From positions 1 through 37,736 of the IMG/VR virus record IMGVR_UViG_3300032163_000053: DNA of 37,736 bases; one strand, written 5' to 3'. This document shows, in pieces, positions 6,185 to 23,735 of this stretch (its first letter is position 1; each line of letters opens with the position of its first letter). The notes beneath the pieces are model-generated. The model searched no databases. It was not told the DNA's origin and saw only the letters and a program-made list of their open reading frames with translations. The position numbers were made by a program, and so were the translations under genes. Source of the DNA: a virus.

Positions 6185-6517
6185 TTAAACTCCCTTTCCA
6201 AACGTGATAGCTTTAGGGGCTATCATTTGTTTCAGTATTGCCTTTAAACCTTCTACGTCTTTGCATGCATCAATATCTTTTTCTGTAATTGTGGGTTCTG
6301 GACCTGTTATGCTTGATGGAGTAAATACTTTCGGGTTCACATCCTTCAAGGTTACTACCTCACCATCCATAATCTGATGAGTATCTATTTTTACATCAGG
6401 AGTAACCTCAATGTATTGAAGGTCTTTAGTTAGATTTATTTCTATAACATCTTTCCTTGTGGTAGATATGATTTTTTTAATAGTTCCGTCTTTATCGTAC
6501 AAAGCATAATTCTTCAT
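6185..6517 (-). CDS. Hypothetical tail-region protein (110 aa)
   Basis: Begins MKNYALYDKDGTIKKIIST, then a beta-rich segment with DVKIDTHQIMDGEVVTLKD and a C-terminal helix DACKDVEGLKAILKQMI. Small proteins with a YALYDKDG-type opening occur downstream of phage tail fibre genes and are sometimes assembly or tip accessory proteins, but I cannot name a family. The start overlaps the previous stop (TAATG). It lies between two tail-tip-associated proteins and the holin-like gene. Confidence 0.5.
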   Translation of the reverse strand: MKNYALYDKDGTIKKIISTTRKDVIEINLTKDLQYIEVTPDVKIDTHQIMDGEVVTLKDVNPKVFTPSSITGPEPTITEKDIDACKDVEGLKAILKQMIAPKAITFGKGV

Positions 6518-7365
6518 TATCTTTTAATCTCCTGAATAGTTAACATTCTGGATTGTGATATCGCAGAACAAGTAGTTGCACCCGTTCTGTGTTTCATCCA
6601 AGACATTGACCAGGTATAGGAATGTCCATTAATCAAAGTTTCAATGGTTCTGACAAAGGGCTCTGTAGCAAGATTAGTAATAATATAAGAAGCCGCAGCT
6701 TGTACGTTCCAAACATTGTACATCGTTGACCAAATCAATGCTGAAGCTGTGTTGTCATAAAGTTTTATTTTGTATGATACTCCCCAATCTGTATTCCAAT
6801 CAAAACCTGATATCGCAGAATAAATATCACTTGCAGTTAAAATTGCTGGAAAATCTTGTCCCACAATATCAATATGTTCAAGTTCTTCCCAGCCTCCTGT
6901 TCCAGCGATAGTTCCTCCGAGATGCCCTGATCCATTCATTACCATATTAGTAGATAATTCACTAAAGTCTATTGAATTACCTATCGTTCCATACTCGCTG
7001 GCTGTAACAATTACGGTTGTTCCTGATCCAGCAGAGGGAACAACACCGTTAGTATCAGCAAGTAGGGCAGTTATTAAATTGGTACAGGCTTCTGCTGCAC
7101 TTGCACCTATAGTTACTTCTCCTGATCCGGTTCTTACGTTTTTCCAAACATATGGTATTCCACAAACAAACGTCTCATCTTCAACAGCTATGCCAGCCAT
7201 TGTGATCGTACCGACAGCCTTGAGTGTATAATCAGCTGAAGTATTGATGTGATTCGAAGCATAGAGATAAGTCAAGTCATTAACTGTCGCCAAGGTCAAA
7301 TCTGGGGTGAATATCAGATTTGGAAACCCTGAAGATGACTTCGGCTGGATGGTTTTCTCTGTCAT
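6517..7365 (-). CDS. Tail-tip accessory protein with GTITMAG domain (copy A)
   Basis: 282 aa. Residues about 48-155 carry a domain with AVGTITMAGIAVEDETF, GEVTIGASAAEACTNLI and MNGSGHLGGT, repeated in the next upstream gene. The GTITMAG...LTMDGSGxLGGT pattern is known from phage tail/baseplate surface proteins. The C-terminal ~120 residues (YKIKLYDNTASALIWSTMYN, RTIETLINGHSYTWSM) look like a separate beta-sandwich. No enzymatic motif is visible. It starts 2 bp after the upstream stop. It probably decorates the tail tip and contacts the cell surface. Confidence 0.6.
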   Translation of the reverse strand: MTEKTIQPKSSSGFPNLIFTPDLTLATVNDLTYLYASNHINTSADYTLKAVGTITMAGIAVEDETFVCGIPYVWKNVRTGSGEVTIGASAAEACTNLITALLADTNGVVPSAGSGTTVIVTASEYGTIGNSIDFSELSTNMVMNGSGHLGGTIAGTGGWEELEHIDIVGQDFPAILTASDIYSAISGFDWNTDWGVSYKIKLYDNTASALIWSTMYNVWNVQAAASYIITNLATEPFVRTIETLINGHSYTWSMSWMKHRTGATTCSAISQSRMLTIQEIKR

Positions 7366-15897: not shown

Positions 15898-16415
15898 TTA
15901 TCCTCTTTTTGCTTTCTCTATCTCCTCGTCTGTTTCTTCTTTTTCAACTTGGTAGAAGGCTATCCAATAATAGTATTCATCCATTGACAGGGCTTCCAAA
16001 TCTTTTACGAAGCATCTTTTTCGATCTGCGAGGGCATAGAGGTTTCGAAGAAAGGGTCTTCTTTATTTTTGAACCTCTCTATAATCTGTTCCAAAGATTC
16101 TGTAGAATGCATTGCATTGGAAATCTTTGTCACAATATAGAAATCTAATTGTTCGAGAAAAGGCTTATCAGTTTCATTGAACAACTTATTCCCATTCTCA
16201 TCCTGTGCCTTCTCAATAATAGTCCAGACGCTGAAAGCAGCATCATCAATCCTGGGAATCAAATCATTTCCTCGAATCTGAGACTTGATTTTAATATTCT
16301 GCATCTCTCGAACTGTAATAGGAGTAAACCAAATTGTTTCTCCAAATTCAGAAACCGTTACTGATTTTTTCTCCCTCTTACCTGGATACTCTCTGATCTT
16401 TTCCTTTAAAGCCAT
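15898..16415 (-). CDS. gpGT-like tail assembly chaperone made by predicted -1 frameshift
   Basis: The zero-frame gpG-like gene ends at 16005. At its end the run GAA-AAA-G (A-run 16017-16021) would let the ribosome slip to -1 at Lys133, continuing for 39 residues (RCFVKDLEALSMDEYYYWIA and on) to a TAA at 15898-15900. The extension, with its MDEYYYWIAFYQ motif, resembles gpT-type domains of lambda-like phages. It has no start of its own and fills the 100-bp gap before the tape measure gene. The predicted fusion is 172 aa. It would hold the tape measure during tube polymerisation. The slip site is not the lambda GGGAAAG heptamer, so efficiency is unknown. Confidence 0.78.
16005..16415 (-). CDS. 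Tail assembly chaperone, gpG-like
   Basis: 136 aa zero-frame product lying directly upstream of the tape measure gene, the standard position of lambda gpG. Starts MALKEKIREYPGKREKKSV; the middle has IWFTPITVREMQNIKIKSQI, and the C-terminal half is acidic and helical (AMHSTESLEQIIERFKNKED). It coats the tape measure during assembly and is absent from the finished virion in lambda. Strong AAAGGAGG site. Its first 10 nt overlap the end of the radical SAM gene, which ties that gene into the tail operon. Confidence 0.82.
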   Translation of the reverse strand: MALKEKIREYPGKREKKSVTVSEFGETIWFTPITVREMQNIKIKSQIRGNDLIPRIDDAAFSVWTIIEKAQDENGNKLFNETDKPFLEQLDFYIVTKISNAMHSTESLEQIIERFKNKEDPFFETSMPSQIEKDAS

Positions 16416-17407
16416 AAACTTTCCTCCTTTATTTTAGTAAGCTCCATCAACATAGGAAACAAATTCTTAAATGCTGAACAAAAGGGGCTCTTATGTTCAT
16501 AAGTTCCATATGCAAGTTTTCTTGTATATGGACAACCTCCCTGGCACCAAGTAATCCATTCACAGTCCTGGCATTCAGGAAGATTTTTAGCCGACCATCT
16601 CTGACGAAATTTTATAGAAGACCAGTTTCTATTAATTAAGATATGGCCAACTTTGGTGTCTAAATCCGCATTACAACTTCGGATCGTTCCGTCAGGATCA
16701 ATAGTTAGAAACCACTTTCCACATGAGTAGCAATTTTTCTGACCTTTCCACGTAGGGTAAGTGGACTCCATTATAAAATTAGGCCACATGGGGTTCTCGG
16801 CTTTAAGCAACAGGTCAAACATTTTCTTCATTTGTTTCTCATATTCATCAACATAACCAGAAATAGTCCCGCCGTTATAAAGTCTGTTAGTCCTCATATG
16901 ACAGTTGTGTTTAATCGCTAATTCTGTAAGTTGTGTAAGCCTTGAAAGGTTTAATTCGTCAAGAGCAATAGCTAAAGCACATCCTCCGCATATTGATTTA
17001 ACCATCTTTATCTTTTCTTCCACACCATCTAAACTATCATAGGTAGGATTCAACAGAACTCTCATTTTCATTTTTTTAATATCATTCAAGATATCGAAAG
17101 TTAGTAAATCTCCATTTGTAAAAGTTAACCAGCCTGCCTCTGAATTAGGCAGGCACTCCTTTGGTTTCATCGTCATCACGTTTTGGTATATTAATTTCAT
17201 TGCTTTGAAACTGTATAAAGGCTCCCCGCCAATAAAATGAATTTTAAATTGTTTTACCCTTTCCTCTTCGAGAATATTAGCAATCCACAAGGGAAGTTCT
17301 TTTCTAATATCCAAAGACATTTCATCATTGCCCTTTGGGTAGTAGCATTCGGGACATTCCCTGCTGCAAATATTATTAACGTAAACAAGAAGATGAAGCA
17401 TTTCCAT
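16406..17407 (-). CDS. Radical SAM/SPASM peptide-maturase-like enzyme
   Basis: 333 aa. Residues 14-21 carry the canonical CxxxCxxC motif (C14, C18, C21) that binds the catalytic 4Fe-4S cluster and S-adenosylmethionine, and GGEP is at 60-63. A full C-terminal SPASM domain follows: C226 and C229, a G240-x4-C245 motif, then C279-x2-C282-x5-C288-x3-C292, and a final C310, enough for two auxiliary clusters. Such enzymes modify peptides or proteins, forming thioether or C-C cross-links or formylglycine. Its ATG overlaps the preceding stop (TAATG), and its end overlaps gpG. The best candidate substrate is the Cys-rich repeat protein two genes upstream. I do not recognise a specific subfamily. A small palindrome lies in the coding region at 17132-17154. 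Confidence 0.88.
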   Translation of the reverse strand: MEMLHLLVYVNNICSRECPECYYPKGNDEMSLDIRKELPLWIANILEEERVKQFKIHFIGGEPLYSFKAMKLIYQNVMTMKPKECLPNSEAGWLTFTNGDLLTFDILNDIKKMKMRVLLNPTYDSLDGVEEKIKMVKSICGGCALAIALDELNLSRLTQLTELAIKHNCHMRTNRLYNGGTISGYVDEYEKQMKKMFDLLLKAENPMWPNFIMESTYPTWKGQKNCYSCGKWFLTIDPDGTIRSCNADLDTKVGHILINRNWSSIKFRQRWSAKNLPECQDCEWITWCQGGCPYTRKLAYGTYEHKSPFCSAFKNLFPMLMELTKIKEESLWL

Positions 17408-18153
17408 TATTCAGAATCCTTCAATCGTTTTATATTATCAATATGCGTAGCGTATTCCGACAATCTCTGAGAACGTGCAACGGATGAAGGATACGTTGCA
17501 GTTAGATATTTGTCATGATCCATCGCATTATATTTGCTCCCATCAAATTCAACTAAAAAACATTTTCCAGCATTGGTTGAAATAGTTTTAACTACCTGGA
17601 TATAAGGTAATTTGCTGTCCCGTTCACCAATCATGCTGTTACATACGATATGCTTTTCTCCAAGTGCTTCCCAAAAATCACCTTTATCAGAGAATACTGG
17701 AACGTAAGCATAAAGTCTGTTAGCTAATCCTGACATAAAAATAAACCGAAAAAGCATGGAAGAAATAAGACGTGAAATCGTAGTTCCCTGAAAGGGTTCA
17801 GTAATCCATTTTTCATAGCTAAAATCACCCTTTCCATATCCATCAGGGTTATCCAAATATTCTTTGAAAGTTACCGTTGCAATCGTTGATTGTTTGTCTT
17901 TGACATAGCACTGCATAGATTGCCCAATCTTTCCCTTTGGAATTGAACGATGGATTTTATTGATAGCTACATAGGTAGGATCATCCCTAACGATCTTTTG
18001 AACTTTTTCTTCGTCGGCAATATCATTCACATCAATAAAAGTAAGGGATGCCACTACTTTGGGTGGCTTTTTAGACATATAAGCATCGAGCCAACAGTCA
18101 GTTGGAATCGAAATAGTTATTCCTTCCTTTGGTAGAAATCTTTTAAATTCCAT
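17407..18153 (-). CDS. Unknown protein between Cys-rich repeat protein and radical SAM enzyme, possible GNAT-like fold
   Basis: 248 aa with no confident family. The centre (about 117-165: EPFQGTTISRLISSMLFRFI, then LANRLYAYVPVFSDKGDF and EALGEK) resembles the acyl-CoA-binding helix and following strand of GNAT acetyltransferases, where a Q/RxxGxG loop would normally be; here it reads QGTTISR, so cofactor binding is doubtful. It starts 10 bp after the Cys-rich gene with GGAG upstream, and its stop overlaps the radical SAM start. It may modify, bind or present the Cys-rich product. This is inferred from context, not from a motif. Confidence 0.55.
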   Translation of the reverse strand: MEFKRFLPKEGITISIPTDCWLDAYMSKKPPKVVASLTFIDVNDIADEEKVQKIVRDDPTYVAINKIHRSIPKGKIGQSMQCYVKDKQSTIATVTFKEYLDNPDGYGKGDFSYEKWITEPFQGTTISRLISSMLFRFIFMSGLANRLYAYVPVFSDKGDFWEALGEKHIVCNSMIGERDSKLPYIQVVKTISTNAGKCFLVEFDGSKYNAMDHDKYLTATYPSSVARSQRLSEYATHIDNIKRLKDSE

Positions 18154-18163
18154 TTATATTCTC

Positions 18164-18778
18164 CTAATATAACAACCAAACATCCGGTGCATATTTCATA
18201 GCATTACATTGGCAGGACTGTGTGTAACAAACAGCATTACAGGAGCATCCTTCATCATAGCAAGCAGAATTGCAAGCACAGGCGCTATCGCCGTAACACT
18301 GAGCATTACAGGAACATCCCTGCCCTTGAGAATAGCAGGTAGCATTACAGGAGCAATATTCACCATAGCAAGCAGCATTACATTGGCACGTCTGACTATA
18401 GCAAGTAGAGTTACAAGAGCAGGCACTATACCCATAGCAAGTAAAATTGCATACACAGGGAGGGCTACCGTCACCTTTACAACCACCACCCTGACTATAG
18501 CAAGAAGAATTGCAAGAGCACGTTGAGTAACCGTAACAAGTAGCATTGCAACCACAACCTTGGGTATAACAGGTGGCATTGCAAGAACAAGCACCGAAAG
18601 AATAACAGGAATAATTACATGAACAGGCAACATATCCGTAACATTGAGCATTGCAAGAACAAGCACCATAACCGTAACAAGTTGCATAGCAGCCACAAGA
18701 TTCCCCGTAACAGGTAACATCACAACTACAACCATGTGTATAGCAAGTTCCATCGCATTGGCATGCTGGCATTCCCAT
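18164..18778 (-). CDS. Cysteine-rich repeat protein, candidate radical SAM substrate
   Basis: 204 aa with 48 cysteines. After MGMPA it is almost entirely an 11-13-residue repeat C-x-C-N-x-x-C-Y-x(3-5), with 15 full units and a 16th half unit, interrupted once near residues 94-107 by GGGCKGDGSPP. It ends with KYAPDVWLLY. There is no signal peptide, membrane segment or classical leader. The 12-residue period with aligned Cys recalls disulfide-braced beta-solenoids and, alternatively, metallothionein-like CxC clusters or repetitive RiPP precursors. It is followed by the possible GNAT-like and radical SAM/SPASM genes and preceded by tail-fibre genes. AAGGA stands 8 nt before the ATG. An overlapping frame (18196-18753) is a repeat shadow. 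Confidence 0.8.
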   Translation of the reverse strand: MGMPACQCDGTCYTHGCSCDVTCYGESCGCYATCYGYGACSCNAQCYGYVACSCNYSCYSFGACSCNATCYTQGCGCNATCYGYSTCSCNSSCYSQGGGCKGDGSPPCVCNFTCYGYSACSCNSTCYSQTCQCNAACYGEYCSCNATCYSQGQGCSCNAQCYGDSACACNSACYDEGCSCNAVCYTQSCQCNAMKYAPDVWLLY

Positions 18779-18790
18779 TATAGATATCCT

Positions 18791-19237
18791 TTAAGGTATA
18801 GAAACCTTTAGCTCTACCGTCAGGAAAGCTCCCGCTATAGTACCCCCAACTGTGTCGACAAACATCTCAAGAAGTTTCCCTGCAACAAAGGCCGTAGTGT
18901 TAAATGCGATCACAGTTCCGGTATAAGCATTGAGAGCAATAGTTGGTCTGTTACCCTGCGTAGTCCAAATCGTTGTGCCGTCGTAGTGAATATCTACTGT
19001 GATAAGGCTACTACCTGTTGGGCAGGCTGTTACGGATAAATATACAGCTACAGCAGTACAATTAAACGGAACATAAAATTTACAACACGGAGAAACTGTT
19101 GTGTTTGCTACTAAAGTTCCGGGAACACTCCAAATTATAACCGGAGCCCCCACAGATATGATTCCACCACCTGCATCATTCGTATGTGAATGAACAGCAT
19201 TGGTAAAATCGGTTATAGTTGGTTTATGTAGTTTCAT
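18791..19237 (-). CDS. Tail fibre-like beta-sandwich protein (148 aa)
   Basis: Residues 10-25 have the FTNAVHSHTNDAGGG motif, a His-containing trimer-forming element seen near the tips of many phage tail fibres, then a beta-rich region to the end (KFYVPFNCTAVAVYLSVTAC; TVDIHYDGTTIWTTQGN). No enzymatic residues are visible. It lies downstream of the collagen-like fibre and DNRLRE-like genes and upstream of the Cys-rich gene, so it is probably a fibre component. Start preceded by AAAGGATTTAAAG. Confidence 0.6.
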   Translation of the reverse strand: MKLHKPTITDFTNAVHSHTNDAGGGIISVGAPVIIWSVPGTLVANTTVSPCCKFYVPFNCTAVAVYLSVTACPTGSSLITVDIHYDGTTIWTTQGNRPTIALNAYTGTVIAFNTTAFVAGKLLEMFVDTVGGTIAGAFLTVELKVSIP

Positions 19238-19832: not shown

Positions 19833-22829
19833 TTATGCCTCTTGATTAGAAGCCATGCAGCCCCAGACAGCTGCTACTGTGTCATAAATAAAACCGACTG
19901 TTAAGAGTTTTGAGATAACTGTTGTAGTTGGCAATGCCACACCTTTAGCTATAAACTTTGCTCCCCAGGTTATTGCTCTTGCTGTTCCGTCATCCTTTAT
20001 TCTTATAACCAACTTCTGAAAATTAACAGGTGTTCCAGTCAGGTTGGTCGTGAACGATGTGATAGCTGCGGCCTGAGCAGTAATCGTAACCGAATCACAG
20101 TTATCAGTATTGATTGTTGGAGTGCCTTCTGAAACTATCGTTGTAACACGAGGAGCCCATATTGGCCCTGAGTAACCTGAAATCCCAGAGTATCCACTAT
20201 AACCTGAAATTCCGGAGTAACCCGACGTTCCAATCCCTGAGTAACCAGAAATCCCTGAGTATCCGCTATAACCTGATGGCCCACTATAACCGGATTTTCC
20301 AGAGTAACCGGAGGTTCCTATTCCAGAATAACCAGAAATCCCTGAGTATCCGCTATATCCTGATATCCCTGAGTATCCAGATGTTCCTATTCCGCTATAA
20401 CCTGAAGTCCCTATTCCTGAGTATCCAGATGTCCCTATTCCAGAATAACCAGATATTCCGCTATAGCCTGAGTATCCAGAAATTCCAGAGTAACCGCTAT
20501 ATCCAGATGGCCCGCTATAACCAGATATCCCTGAATAACCCGACGTTCCAATCCCTGAGTAACCAGAAATCCCTGAGTAACCAGATGTCCCTATTCCAGA
20601 ATAACCAGAAATTCCTGAGTATCCGCTATAACCTGATATCCCTGAGTATCCAGAGTAACCAGATGGCCCGCTATATCCAGAAATTCCTGAGTAGCCTGAT
20701 GTGCTACTATATCCACTGAAACCAGAAGTTCCACCGCCACTTGAAACAACCGCTTTACCTGTAGCAGCAGATTCAAGAGTAACCGTACAATTATTAGTAT
20801 CAACCCAAACTACAGTAAGTGGAATGAGTTGATTATCAATAGCATCAAATACTTGAACAATTACTTCTTTATATCCAAGGTTATGGGTAATGTTCCATGT
20901 AACATTTGAAGCTCCTTGGGTGTGGATGTAGTTACTTCCACCACCAGAATAGCCTGATATCCCGCTATAGCCTGAATAACCTGATATCCCTATCCCTGAG
21001 TATCCGCTATAACCTGATACCCCTGAATAACCCGACGTTCCAATTCCTGAGTAACCAGAAATTCCTGAGTAACCAGAAATCCCTGAGTAACCCGATGTCC
21101 CGATGCCTGAATAGCCTGAAATTCCAGAGTAACCGCTATAACCAGAAATCCCTGAGTAACCCGATGTCCCGATGCCTGAGTAACCTGAAATTCCAGAGTA
21201 ACCGCTATATCCAGATGGCCCGCTATAACCCGATATCCCGGAATAACCCGACGTTCCAATCCCTGAGTAACCAGAAATCCCTGAGTATCCAGAATAACCC
21301 GATGGCCCGCTATACCCTGAAATTCCAGAATAGCCTGATGTCCCTATTCCTGAGTAACCCGATATCCCTGAGTATCCGCTATACCCTGATGTCCCAATCC
21401 CTGAGTAACCTGATATCCCGGAATAGCCTGATGTCCCTATTCCTGAGTAACCTGAAATTCCAGAGTAACCCGACGTCCCGATTCCACTATATCCTGAAAT
21501 TCCAGAGTAACCAGAAGTTCCATCAATACCGCTATAACCTGAAATTCCGGAGTAACCGGATGTTCCTATGCCAGAATAACCAGAAATCCCGCTATCTCCA
21601 CTATAACCAGAAATTCCTGAGTAGCCTGAATAACCAGATGTTCCTATTCCTGAATAACCAGAAATCCCAGAGTACCCTGAATCGCCACTGTACCCTGATG
21701 TACCTATCCCCGAATAACCGCTATAACCAGATTTTCCAGAGTAACCTGATTCTCCGATCCCAGAGTAACCAGAAATCCCTGAATAACCTGATGTGCCTAC
21801 GCCTGAGTAACCAGAGGTTCCTATTCCAGAGTAACCGCTATAACCCGATATCCCAGAGTAACCTGACGTTCCAATTCCCGAATAACCAGAAATCCCTGAA
21901 TAACCCGATTGTCCGTCTGCACCAGAATAACCGCTTATCCCTTCAAGACCGTCAATCCCTGAGTAACCACTATCTCCTGACAGCCCCGAATAGCCACTTT
22001 CGGAAGCCTGACCGTCTAAGCCACTATAACCAGATTTTCCAGAGTAGCCTGATGTACCGACTCCAGAATATCCACTTATACCTGAAATTCCGCTATACCC
22101 CGAAAGACCTTGGGTTCCCTGTTCACCAGAGTAACCTGATAGGCCGATTCCGGAGTAGCCCGAATAACCCGATTCACCGTTTACTCCACTAAATCCAGAG
22201 TAGCCTGAATCACCCAAACCACCTGAATAGCCAGAAAGCCCGCTTGTTCCTACCCCTGAGTATCCTGACGTTCCGCTATAACCAGAGATCCCGCTATTAC
22301 CGCTATAACCAGATTGACCTGAATAGCCTGAAATCCCTAAAATCCCGTCAATCCCGCTATAGCCAGAGAATCCTGATAAACCTACCCCTGAGTATCCTGA
22401 CGATCCGCTATAGCCAGAGATTCCATCCTGACCGCTATAACCACTGTAACCACTATCAGATGCTATCCCGCTATAACCTGAAACCCCAGAATAACCTGAC
22501 GTCCCTATGCCTGAGTAGCCTGAAACTCCGCTATAACCTGATTCTCCGATGCCTGAATAGCCTGACCATCCACTATTAGCTGCTTGTCCGTCCAGTCCGC
22601 TGAAACCAGAATACCCGGAATAACCCGAATCACCTGCAAGACCATCCTGCCCTAAATACCCCGAATAACCAGATTTCCCGGAGTATCCTGAATAGGCCGA
22701 ATAGCCAGAAAGCCCTGCCTGAATCAATACATCAATCTCAGGTTGGGAAACTTCTATAACTTCAGAGCTTCCAACGATTTCAACTGTGATTGTCGTTGTT
22801 TCGATTTCAACTACGGAGATAACTGGCAT
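19833..22829 (-). CDS. Collagen-like Gly-Tyr-Ser-Gly repeat tail fibre
   Basis: 998 aa. A beta-structured head (~1-45, PVISVVEIETTTITVEIVGS) leads into roughly 600 residues of SGYSGISGYSGIGTSGYSG-type repeats. An interruption follows (about residues 630-705, HTQGASNVTWNITHNLGYKE), then ~180 more repeat residues and a ~105-residue globular end with ITWGAKFIAKGVALPTTTVI and FIYDTVAAVWGC. Most repeats obey Gly-X-Y with periodic IGTS breaks, so a trimeric collagen-like rod is likely. Collagen-like phage tail fibres of this type are known. It is transcribed within the tail operon. Repeat length may vary between isolates or assemblies. Confidence 0.82.
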   Translation of the reverse strand: MPVISVVEIETTTITVEIVGSSEVIEVSQPEIDVLIQAGLSGYSAYSGYSGKSGYSGYLGQDGLAGDSGYSGYSGFSGLDGQAANSGWSGYSGIGESGYSGVSGYSGIGTSGYSGVSGYSGIASDSGYSGYSGQDGISGYSGSSGYSGVGLSGFSGYSGIDGILGISGYSGQSGYSGNSGISGYSGTSGYSGVGTSGLSGYSGGLGDSGYSGFSGVNGESGYSGYSGIGLSGYSGEQGTQGLSGYSGISGISGYSGVGTSGYSGKSGYSGLDGQASESGYSGLSGDSGYSGIDGLEGISGYSGADGQSGYSGISGYSGIGTSGYSGISGYSGYSGIGTSGYSGVGTSGYSGISGYSGIGESGYSGKSGYSGYSGIGTSGYSGDSGYSGISGYSGIGTSGYSGYSGISGYSGDSGISGYSGIGTSGYSGISGYSGIDGTSGYSGISGYSGIGTSGYSGISGYSGIGTSGYSGISGYSGIGTSGYSGYSGISGYSGIGTSGYSGISGYSGPSGYSGYSGISGYSGIGTSGYSGISGYSGPSGYSGYSGISGYSGIGTSGYSGISGYSGYSGISGYSGIGTSGYSGISGYSGISGYSGIGTSGYSGVSGYSGYSGIGISGYSGYSGISGYSGGGSNYIHTQGASNVTWNITHNLGYKEVIVQVFDAIDNQLIPLTVVWVDTNNCTVTLESAATGKAVVSSGGGTSGFSGYSSTSGYSGISGYSGPSGYSGYSGISGYSGYSGISGYSGIGTSGYSGISGYSGIGTSGYSGISGYSGPSGYSGYSGISGYSGYSGISGYSGIGTSGYSGIGTSGYSGIGTSGYSGISGYSGYSGISGYSGIGTSGYSGKSGYSGPSGYSGYSGISGYSGIGTSGYSGISGYSGYSGISGYSGPIWAPRVTTIVSEGTPTINTDNCDSVTITAQAAAITSFTTNLTGTPVNFQKLVIRIKDDGTARAITWGAKFIAKGVALPTTTVISKLLTVGFIYDTVAAVWGCMASNQEA

Positions 22830-22849: not shown

Positions 22850-23218
22850 TTATGCGGAATAACCGCTATAGCCTGAGTAACCGGAGTATCCAGACTTTGA
22901 AACTTCTGGAGTGATCGTAAATGTCCCTCTTAAAAGTTCTGTCACAACTCCACTTATTTCCATCTCAATGGAATAGATATAATCTCCTGGAGTAAATGTG
23001 CTTGTTACTGAAGAAGGAATGTAAAGTTGAATCTGACCCAGTGAGGCATTGGTGATTTTGATTCCAATGTCGAATTCATTGGTGGAATGTTGATTCTTTC
23101 GGATTTGTCCTCTGAAGACATAGTTTGTCAAAACCATTGGAATATCGTTTTGTTTTAGGACTAAATCCTTCAGGAAGGTTTCACCAGCCTCTACTATAAA
23201 ATTATATTGGCCACTCAT
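22850..23218 (-). CDS. Small tail/baseplate beta-sandwich protein ending in GYSG repeats
   Basis: 122 aa. Residues 1-105 are a single beta domain with VEAGETFLKDLVLKQNDIPM and LRGTFTITPEVS, resembling N-terminal domains of baseplate and fibre-attachment proteins in other siphophages. The last ~14 residues are SGYSGYSGYSGYSA, the same repeat as in the adjacent 998-residue fibre. It overlaps the 3' end of the HNH-like gene by 17 nt. It probably bridges the tail to the fibre. The shared end suggests exchange or splitting of an ancestral gene. Confidence 0.6.
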   Translation of the reverse strand: MSGQYNFIVEAGETFLKDLVLKQNDIPMVLTNYVFRGQIRKNQHSTNEFDIGIKITNASLGQIQLYIPSSVTSTFTPGDYIYSIEMEISGVVTELLRGTFTITPEVSKSGYSGYSGYSGYSA

Positions 23219-23735
23219 TTTTTGCTCCTTGTACTCTCCTTGAATTATTTACTTGTTCCTTCTGAGTTGACCACTTACAATTCCCAGGTTCATAATTTCC
23301 ATCATTATCTTTTCTATCTATACTTAATCCTTCGGGTTTTGGCCCCATATCTTCAAGGAAGTTTTCAAATCCATGCTTTCCAGACCATCTATCACAAATG
23401 GTAATTCCTCTCCCACCATAATATTCATATCGTTGATTTTTTGGGTTTAAACATCTTTGTTTCATACCTTCCCAACTTGTATATATTGAAGTGTTTGTAT
23501 ATCCATGTTTAAGCGCTAACTTTCTTATAGAAGCACGTTGTTTACTCGATTCCCTATGAAAACACCCACAACTTTTTGTAAGACCACTAACAAAACTCAT
23601 GGTAGGAACAAGATAATATTCTCCACAGTCACACTGTGTTAACCATACGACCCGGCCATAATACCTTTCAGAAGTTGGAAAAATAGCCATCAATCTTCCA
23701 AATTTTTGTCCTCTGATATCTATAAAATTCGACAC
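23202..23735 (-). CDS. Putative homing endonuclease-like protein with N-terminal Cys motif (copy 2)
   Basis: 177 aa starting with GTG (AGGAGAATTAAC upstream). Residues ~30-60 have a zinc-ribbon-like CDC-x20-CGC motif with Cys at both ends (QCDCGEYYL and KSCGCFHRES). The rest matches copy 1: SWEGMKQRCLNP, YYGGRGITICDRW, FLEDMGPKPEGLSIDRKDN and NYEPGNCKWSTQKEQVNN. This family is frequent in phages as free-standing mobile endonuclease-like genes; the catalytic residues are not obvious. It lies between the tail tube gene and a small tail gene, whose start it overlaps. Confidence 0.72.
   Translation of the reverse strand: MSNFIDIRGQKFGRLMAIFPTSERYYGRVVWLTQCDCGEYYLVPTMSFVSGLTKSCGCFHRESSKQRASIRKLALKHGYTNTSIYTSWEGMKQRCLNPKNQRYEYYGGRGITICDRWSGKHGFENFLEDMGPKPEGLSIDRKDNDGNYEPGNCKWSTQKEQVNNSRRVQGAKNEWPI

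Follow-up and report, generated by a model that had tools for sequence, protein, structure and literature searches.

A cysteine-repeat tail protein encoded beside radical SAM/SPASM enzymes suggests that some tailed phages chemically staple parts of their tails

The virus DNA analysed here, a whole 37.7-kb IMG/VR record (IMGVR_UViG_3300032163_000053; 37,736 nucleotides, hereafter the window), has three neighbouring genes, which encode a Cys-repeat protein (CysRep), a protein of GNAT fold and a radical SAM/SPASM enzyme. Together with related contigs, this locus suggests that, in some phages, parts of the tail are chemically stapled by the phage's own enzymes. Genomic linkage, fusion of the repeat to tail proteins and enzyme homology lead us to an enzyme-substrate reading: the repeat would be a fibre domain stapled by phage radical SAM enzymes, probably through thioethers, with the GNAT protein as an accessory modifier. 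We hold this full reading with moderate confidence. The joint claim that the repeat is both a radical SAM substrate and part of the virion we regard as highly probable, and that the cross-links are thioethers specifically is offered tentatively, by analogy with known maturases.

The record is that of a temperate siphophage with recognisable genes for integrase, terminase, portal, capsid, tape measure and a J-like central fibre; its late genes lie on the minus strand. On that strand the CysRep gene (18164..18778; 204 aa, 48 Cys), encoding the proposed substrate and virion appendage, is followed after a 10-bp gap by the gene of the 248-aa GNAT-fold protein (17407..18153), which overlaps by 1 bp the gene of the 333-aa radical SAM/SPASM enzyme, the proposed maturase (16406..17407). 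The three genes are packed between fibre genes and the gpG-like chaperone and tape measure. The fibre genes encode a 998-aa collagen-like protein of GYSG(ISGYSG) repeats (19833..22829, minus strand), a 193-aa protein and, immediately upstream of CysRep, a 148-aa fibre-head-like protein (18791..19237, minus strand; PHROG 27064). On the other side, the radical SAM gene overlaps by 10 bp the gene of the gpG-like tail assembly chaperone (16005..16415, minus strand; PHROG 344 'tail assembly chaperone', E=8e-9), which we place outside the maturation module. The ORF calls agree with the initial annotation of this DNA on the three-gene cassette, its boundaries, the Cys count and the overlaps. That annotation also held the cassette to be built into the tail operon, which is borne out in the window by the overlap with the chaperone gene but is not universal, since in contig G018 a chaperone homologue 45% identical to that of the window lies ~12 kb away. 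GYSG-type proteins are also encoded near the CysRep genes of contigs G006 and G007, and an HNH endonuclease gene sits amid the tail genes of the window (23202-23735; PHROG 374, E=3e-61).

CysRep consists of 16 units of the form C-x-C-[N/D]-x-x-C-Y, each of 11-12 residues. A consensus drawn from 13 proteins, with 138 units in all, reads C-[ST]-C-[N>D]-x-[TSA]-C-Y-G-[YQ]-S-(A), with a period of 11 or 12. When the 16 window units were scored as CxC[NDY]xx.Y, the two Cys positions used TGC and TGT at 7:9 and 8:8 and the Tyr position used TAT and TAC at 10:6, with the residues constant. Because synonymous positions vary freely while the residues are kept, the repeat is under selection as protein and is more than repetitive DNA. 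Its ends are also shared: CysRep starts with MGMPAC and ends with KYAPDVWLLY, a 97-aa stand-alone protein of contig G002 (L032:6750-7043) starts with MGMPSC and ends with KYAPDVWLFY, and the G006 version ends with KYAPGSWLFY. Within the units [N/D]xxC is the rule; N or D stands three residues ahead of 173 of 596 Cys. Tyr8 is kept in 114 of the 138 units, often where Cys7 is absent, and N/D at position 4 co-varies weakly with Cys at position 7 (odds ratio 2.2, p=0.08). An AlphaFold2 (AF2) model of low alignment depth is beta-rich and solenoid-like (pLDDT 74), and AF2 is prone to over-predicting solenoids for repeat sequences. A fold search with this model gave no significant PDB match, so that the model carries no weight in our reading, and an insect-type 12-residue disulfide beta-solenoid (TmAFP-like) was dropped on the same result.

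Seven contigs have the repeat embedded in, or joined to, proteins of the tail fibre, baseplate or tail tip. In G001-G004 it splits a C1q-domain fibre protein (PF00386, 5.3e-5 in G001, with homologues in G002-G004), ahead of which stand two paralogous fibre proteins that lack the repeat. Two consecutive baseplate-region proteins of G014 contain it, as do tail-tip-like proteins of G018 and L059, and in G006 and G008 the repeat gene adjoins a fibre gene and the radical SAM gene. The virion location first proposed for the window protein gains support from these fusions to C1q-like fibre, baseplate and tail-tip proteins, and from these contexts the repeat is very probably a part of the virion, a surface-exposed domain. 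Glycosyltransferase-like genes lie near the CysRep genes of G007 and G008 (L091:7539-14033, L011:1814-3088), possibly for further decoration of the fibre.

Linkage between repeat and enzyme was followed from both sides. IMG/VR was scanned with exact DNA patterns for two successive repeat units, and a second, wider pattern was added. Among the matches listed, the two-unit pattern returned nine coding contigs (G001-G009) plus chance matches, and the wider pattern only one more coding contig (G014); L013, L014, L015 and 13 wider-pattern contigs were discarded as chance DNA matches with no ORF carrying the motif. A related radical SAM enzyme is encoded in nine of the ten repeat contigs (G001-G004, G006-G009, G014), and the tenth, G005, stops inside the repeat gene. 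On the coding strand of seven contigs the forward pattern matched 28 times and reversed-pattern controls 0 times. From the enzyme side, a search with a second radical SAM family, rSAM-B, used no Cys information and gave 24 loci, 19 of them distinct after removal of near-duplicates; the contigs are metagenomic and often partial, and the loci counted are not independent draws. With a threshold of at least 9 Cys in 50 residues and ~6 kb inspected on each side of rSAM-B, a Cys-rich ORF was found in 14 of the 19 distinct contigs; by the same threshold there are three such ORFs in the 169 kb of phage CP220. CxCNxxCY or another Cys-rich repeat occurs somewhere on the contig in 17 of the 19. L046 (G003), L047 (G014) and L054 (G007) carry their Cys-rich ORF elsewhere on the contig, outside the ~6-kb stretch, and the remaining two show a weaker Cys tail (L066) or a motif confined to the tail of the enzyme itself (L057). 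The initial annotation had named radical SAM homologues without a Cys-repeat gene as evidence against its proposal; the searches did not refute it, as each informative contig with the CxCNxxCY type of repeat also encodes a radical SAM enzyme. On this genomic evidence the pairing is not accidental.

The window enzyme had been annotated as a radical SAM protein with a complete SPASM domain, and its superfamily membership is upheld. It has the CxxxCxxC motif (C14, C18, C21), GGEP and seven SPASM Cys (C229, C245, C279, C282, C288, C292, C310), all of them invariant in seven homologues. The NCBIfam SPASM model TIGR04085 scores it at 47.6 bits against a cut-off of 27; its scores with Pfam Radical_SAM and SPASM stay under their cut-offs. 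Its family, rSAM-A, occurs in seven cassettes on six contigs at 43-54% identity to the window enzyme. The best NCBIfam equivalog is the ranthipeptide maturase PapB (NF047865; 5e-13), and the window enzyme falls far under the cut-off of every equivalog; PapB membership itself failed, at 48.9 bits for the window enzyme and 206.8-209.7 bits for two rSAM-B proteins against a cut-off of 340. The rSAM-B family, which is absent from the window, aligns over its full length with PapB (6.5e-62), SCIFF (4e-42) and QhpD (1e-40), in each case under the curated cut-off. Most rSAM-B proteins end in a substrate-like C-terminal tail, CxC[NYD]xxxY (e.g. CDCYNANYTGP), sometimes in two copies (L001:6637-7887, L032:10081-11331, L033:12400-13620, L034:11734-12996, L035:8964-10418, L047:432-1793, L092:3617-4762, L056:5998-7437, L057:824-2284), which is possibly a pseudo-substrate or recognition element. 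The rSAM-B genes of G009 and G006 carry intein-like insertions (L036:2287-5040, L037:1458-3122), both near the first SPASM region.

The 248-aa protein, in which a possible GNAT-like segment had been noted, is a GNAT protein by predicted fold: its AF2 model (pLDDT 70) matched PDB structures with a Foldseek probability of 1.00 and a best E of 4.6e-6, and all 50 matches listed are annotated as GNAT-type acyltransferases. Its L033 homologue matched PF00583 at E=0.0026, under the cut-off, and kinship with arginine succinyltransferases was unsupported by Pfam. The GNAT gene lies directly upstream of rSAM-A in seven of seven cassettes. Larger cassettes have the order rSAM-B, PanC-like protein, GNAT, rSAM-A, rSAM-B usually preceding the PanC-like HxGH nucleotidyltransferase (L001:7884-8678, L032:11332-12138, L033:11603-12397, L034:12989-13807, L091:5675-6544, L092:2871-3635), which was named from Pfam matches under the cut-offs (Pantoate_ligase E=7e-4, CTP_transf_like E=0.024). 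Since the larger cassettes add rSAM-B and the PanC-like protein, the window holds, by gene content, the minimal set of CysRep, GNAT and rSAM-A. A block of fibre head, CysRep, GNAT and rSAM-A, in this order, is common to the window and the first cassette of the 102-kb contig G002, and the 148-aa window protein is 51% identical to the C-terminus of a 666-aa protein upstream of the G002 CysRep. Beyond cross-linking, the GNAT and PanC-like accessory enzymes, like the glycosyltransferase-like genes of G007 and G008, suggest further decoration.

In the mechanism we propose, the CxC[ND]xxCY repeat would form a domain of the tail fibre or tail tip and undergo post-translational modification in the infected cell by one or more phage radical SAM/SPASM enzymes. 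The enzyme would take a hydrogen from the Asn or Asp of each unit, and this residue would then be joined to the Cys three residues on, giving an [N/D]xxC beta-thioether as in NxxcA and freyrasin. In the simplest model there would be one thioether per unit, [N/D]4-x-x-C7, repeated along the domain, with the CxC pair left for disulfides or metal. Such a domain would make a stalk or tip of short period, stapled covalently and resistant to unfolding and to proteolysis; the GNAT protein probably acylates a residue in the Cys-repeat domain or the neighbouring fibre.

Several known systems come close to this scheme. QhpD is a radical SAM enzyme that puts thioethers into a functional protein and not a natural product; this maturase of the quinohemoprotein amine dehydrogenase gamma-subunit is among the full-length matches of rSAM-B, but it is non-viral and acts on another substrate. 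PapB, which matures freyrasin, and the ranthipeptide maturases (NF047865, SCIFF TIGR03974) resemble the phage enzymes in combining radical SAM and SPASM domains, in a target with repeated Cys and in the full-length rSAM-B alignment. Unlike them, the phage enzymes score under the family cut-off, are phage-encoded and are paired with a GNAT protein, and they would act not on a small peptide but on a virion protein as large as 736 aa. In the streptococcal RiPP system NxxcA/NxxcB, which makes a beta-thioether between Asn and Cys, Cys23 is joined to Asn20 three residues upstream, and in freyrasin Cys is joined to Asp in six bridges (PMC8326336). The [N]xxC motif of NxxcA likewise occurs in each phage unit, although the window protein has 16 such units and one phage fibre as many as ~24, and the phage enzymes show no sign of ancestry shared with NxxcB beyond the superfamily.

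Several observations do not favour the thioether scheme: no leader peptide or RiPP-recognition domain came to notice in the analyses described here, and, because positions 4 and 7 co-vary weakly and Tyr8 persists, there is room for other chemistries. In these the radical SAM enzyme would modify the repeat without a thioether, by e.g. a Tyr-centred cross-link, a change to the Asn or Tyr backbone, or epimerisation. The retention of Tyr8 despite loss of Cys7, the many rSAM-B tails that read CxC[NY]xxxY without Cys7 and the cyclophane maturases among the remote matches are in keeping with such a product; we nevertheless judge it unlikely, since rSAM-B finds its best full-length matches among thioether maturases and the Cys density of the repeat is extreme. 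Quite improbable in our view is that the repeat is a metallothionein-like domain binding metal or Fe-S, or a disulfide ladder, with the radical SAM target elsewhere. CxC pairs are similar to metallothionein motifs, and three Cys per unit would give room for metal or disulfides; the conservation of Asn and Tyr speaks against this, and the strict linkage of the repeat to radical SAM and GNAT genes would be left unexplained.

Two readings would take the repeat out of the enzyme's reach or out of the virion, and we give very little weight to either. The radical SAM and GNAT genes could serve auxiliary metabolism and have nothing to do with the Cys protein, a role put forward for the radical SAM proteins of Campylobacter phage CP220, in whose description the 21-bp repeat and the many radical SAM proteins were mentioned separately and the latter interpreted as metabolic (PMC2853527). 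CP220 encodes 11 radical SAM proteins, some plausibly metabolic, e.g. a QueE-like one, but the sole intragenic repeat of its genome (21 bp, CPT_0180) codes for CDCNYCT units and is followed a few genes later by a radical SAM gene, and linkage and synteny extend across unrelated phages. The repeat protein could also be a phage-carried secreted RiPP, a toxin or signal, as related maturases act on small secreted RiPPs; here the repeat is found fused to proteins of the fibre and baseplate and stands among late structural genes, both of which argue for the virion, and no export genes were seen adjoining the repeat gene. An antimicrobial-peptide function for the Cys-repeat protein likewise ranks low.

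Our preferred reading, a virion domain stapled by phage radical SAM enzymes, joins enzymes of a known kind to a substrate that appears undescribed. Radical SAM/SPASM maturases are so far known mainly from small peptide natural products and from few enzymes, and the literature searched, with most subscription papers outside its coverage, contained no account of radical SAM maturation of a phage virion protein. A virion appendage of this kind had been called new in the initial annotation, and it appears so within that literature. If the reading is true, it adds a novel means by which a virus can reinforce or vary a structure that binds its host, and it assigns a function to many phage radical SAM genes that so far lack an explanation (PHROG 1802, the CP220 set hitherto called metabolic). 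Natural, repetitive, covalently stapled protein fibres would then also become available for engineering.

A wider reading, to which we give slightly less than even odds, is that many unrelated tailed phages have independently equipped their tail fibres, tips or baseplates with Cys-repeat domains stapled by radical SAM enzymes (CxCNxxCY, CDCNYCT, CSGSCSGKC, CNCDCNC and others), a general and previously unseen class of virion fibre cross-linked by phage-encoded RiPP-type chemistry. The genomic rule is simple, a Cys-repeat fibre plus a radical SAM enzyme, and lends itself to tests in cultured phages. In the CP220 group, Caitlin and JWF, too, a radical SAM gene adjoins, or lies close to, a small or tail-region ORF that contains a Cys-rich repeat or tract; the repeat sequences differ, so that the arrangements are analogous and not homologous, and they were earlier taken as metabolic or left unexplained. 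In CP220 gp140 (L070:5191-6795) the 21-bp repeat encodes CDCNYCT, with a radical SAM gene a few genes downstream; two other CP220 Cys-rich proteins, of the NCxNC type, were not counted as the same, one being ~7 kb from any radical SAM gene. Achromobacter phage JWF has a fibre, gp028, with CNCDCNCNCSC, and the radical SAM protein gp030. Erwinia phage Caitlin (NC_031120) has two CSGSCSGKC-rich ORFs (L069:6077-6460 and 6403-6864) beside the radical SAM genes gp172 and gp171; both ORFs are missing from the annotation of the record.
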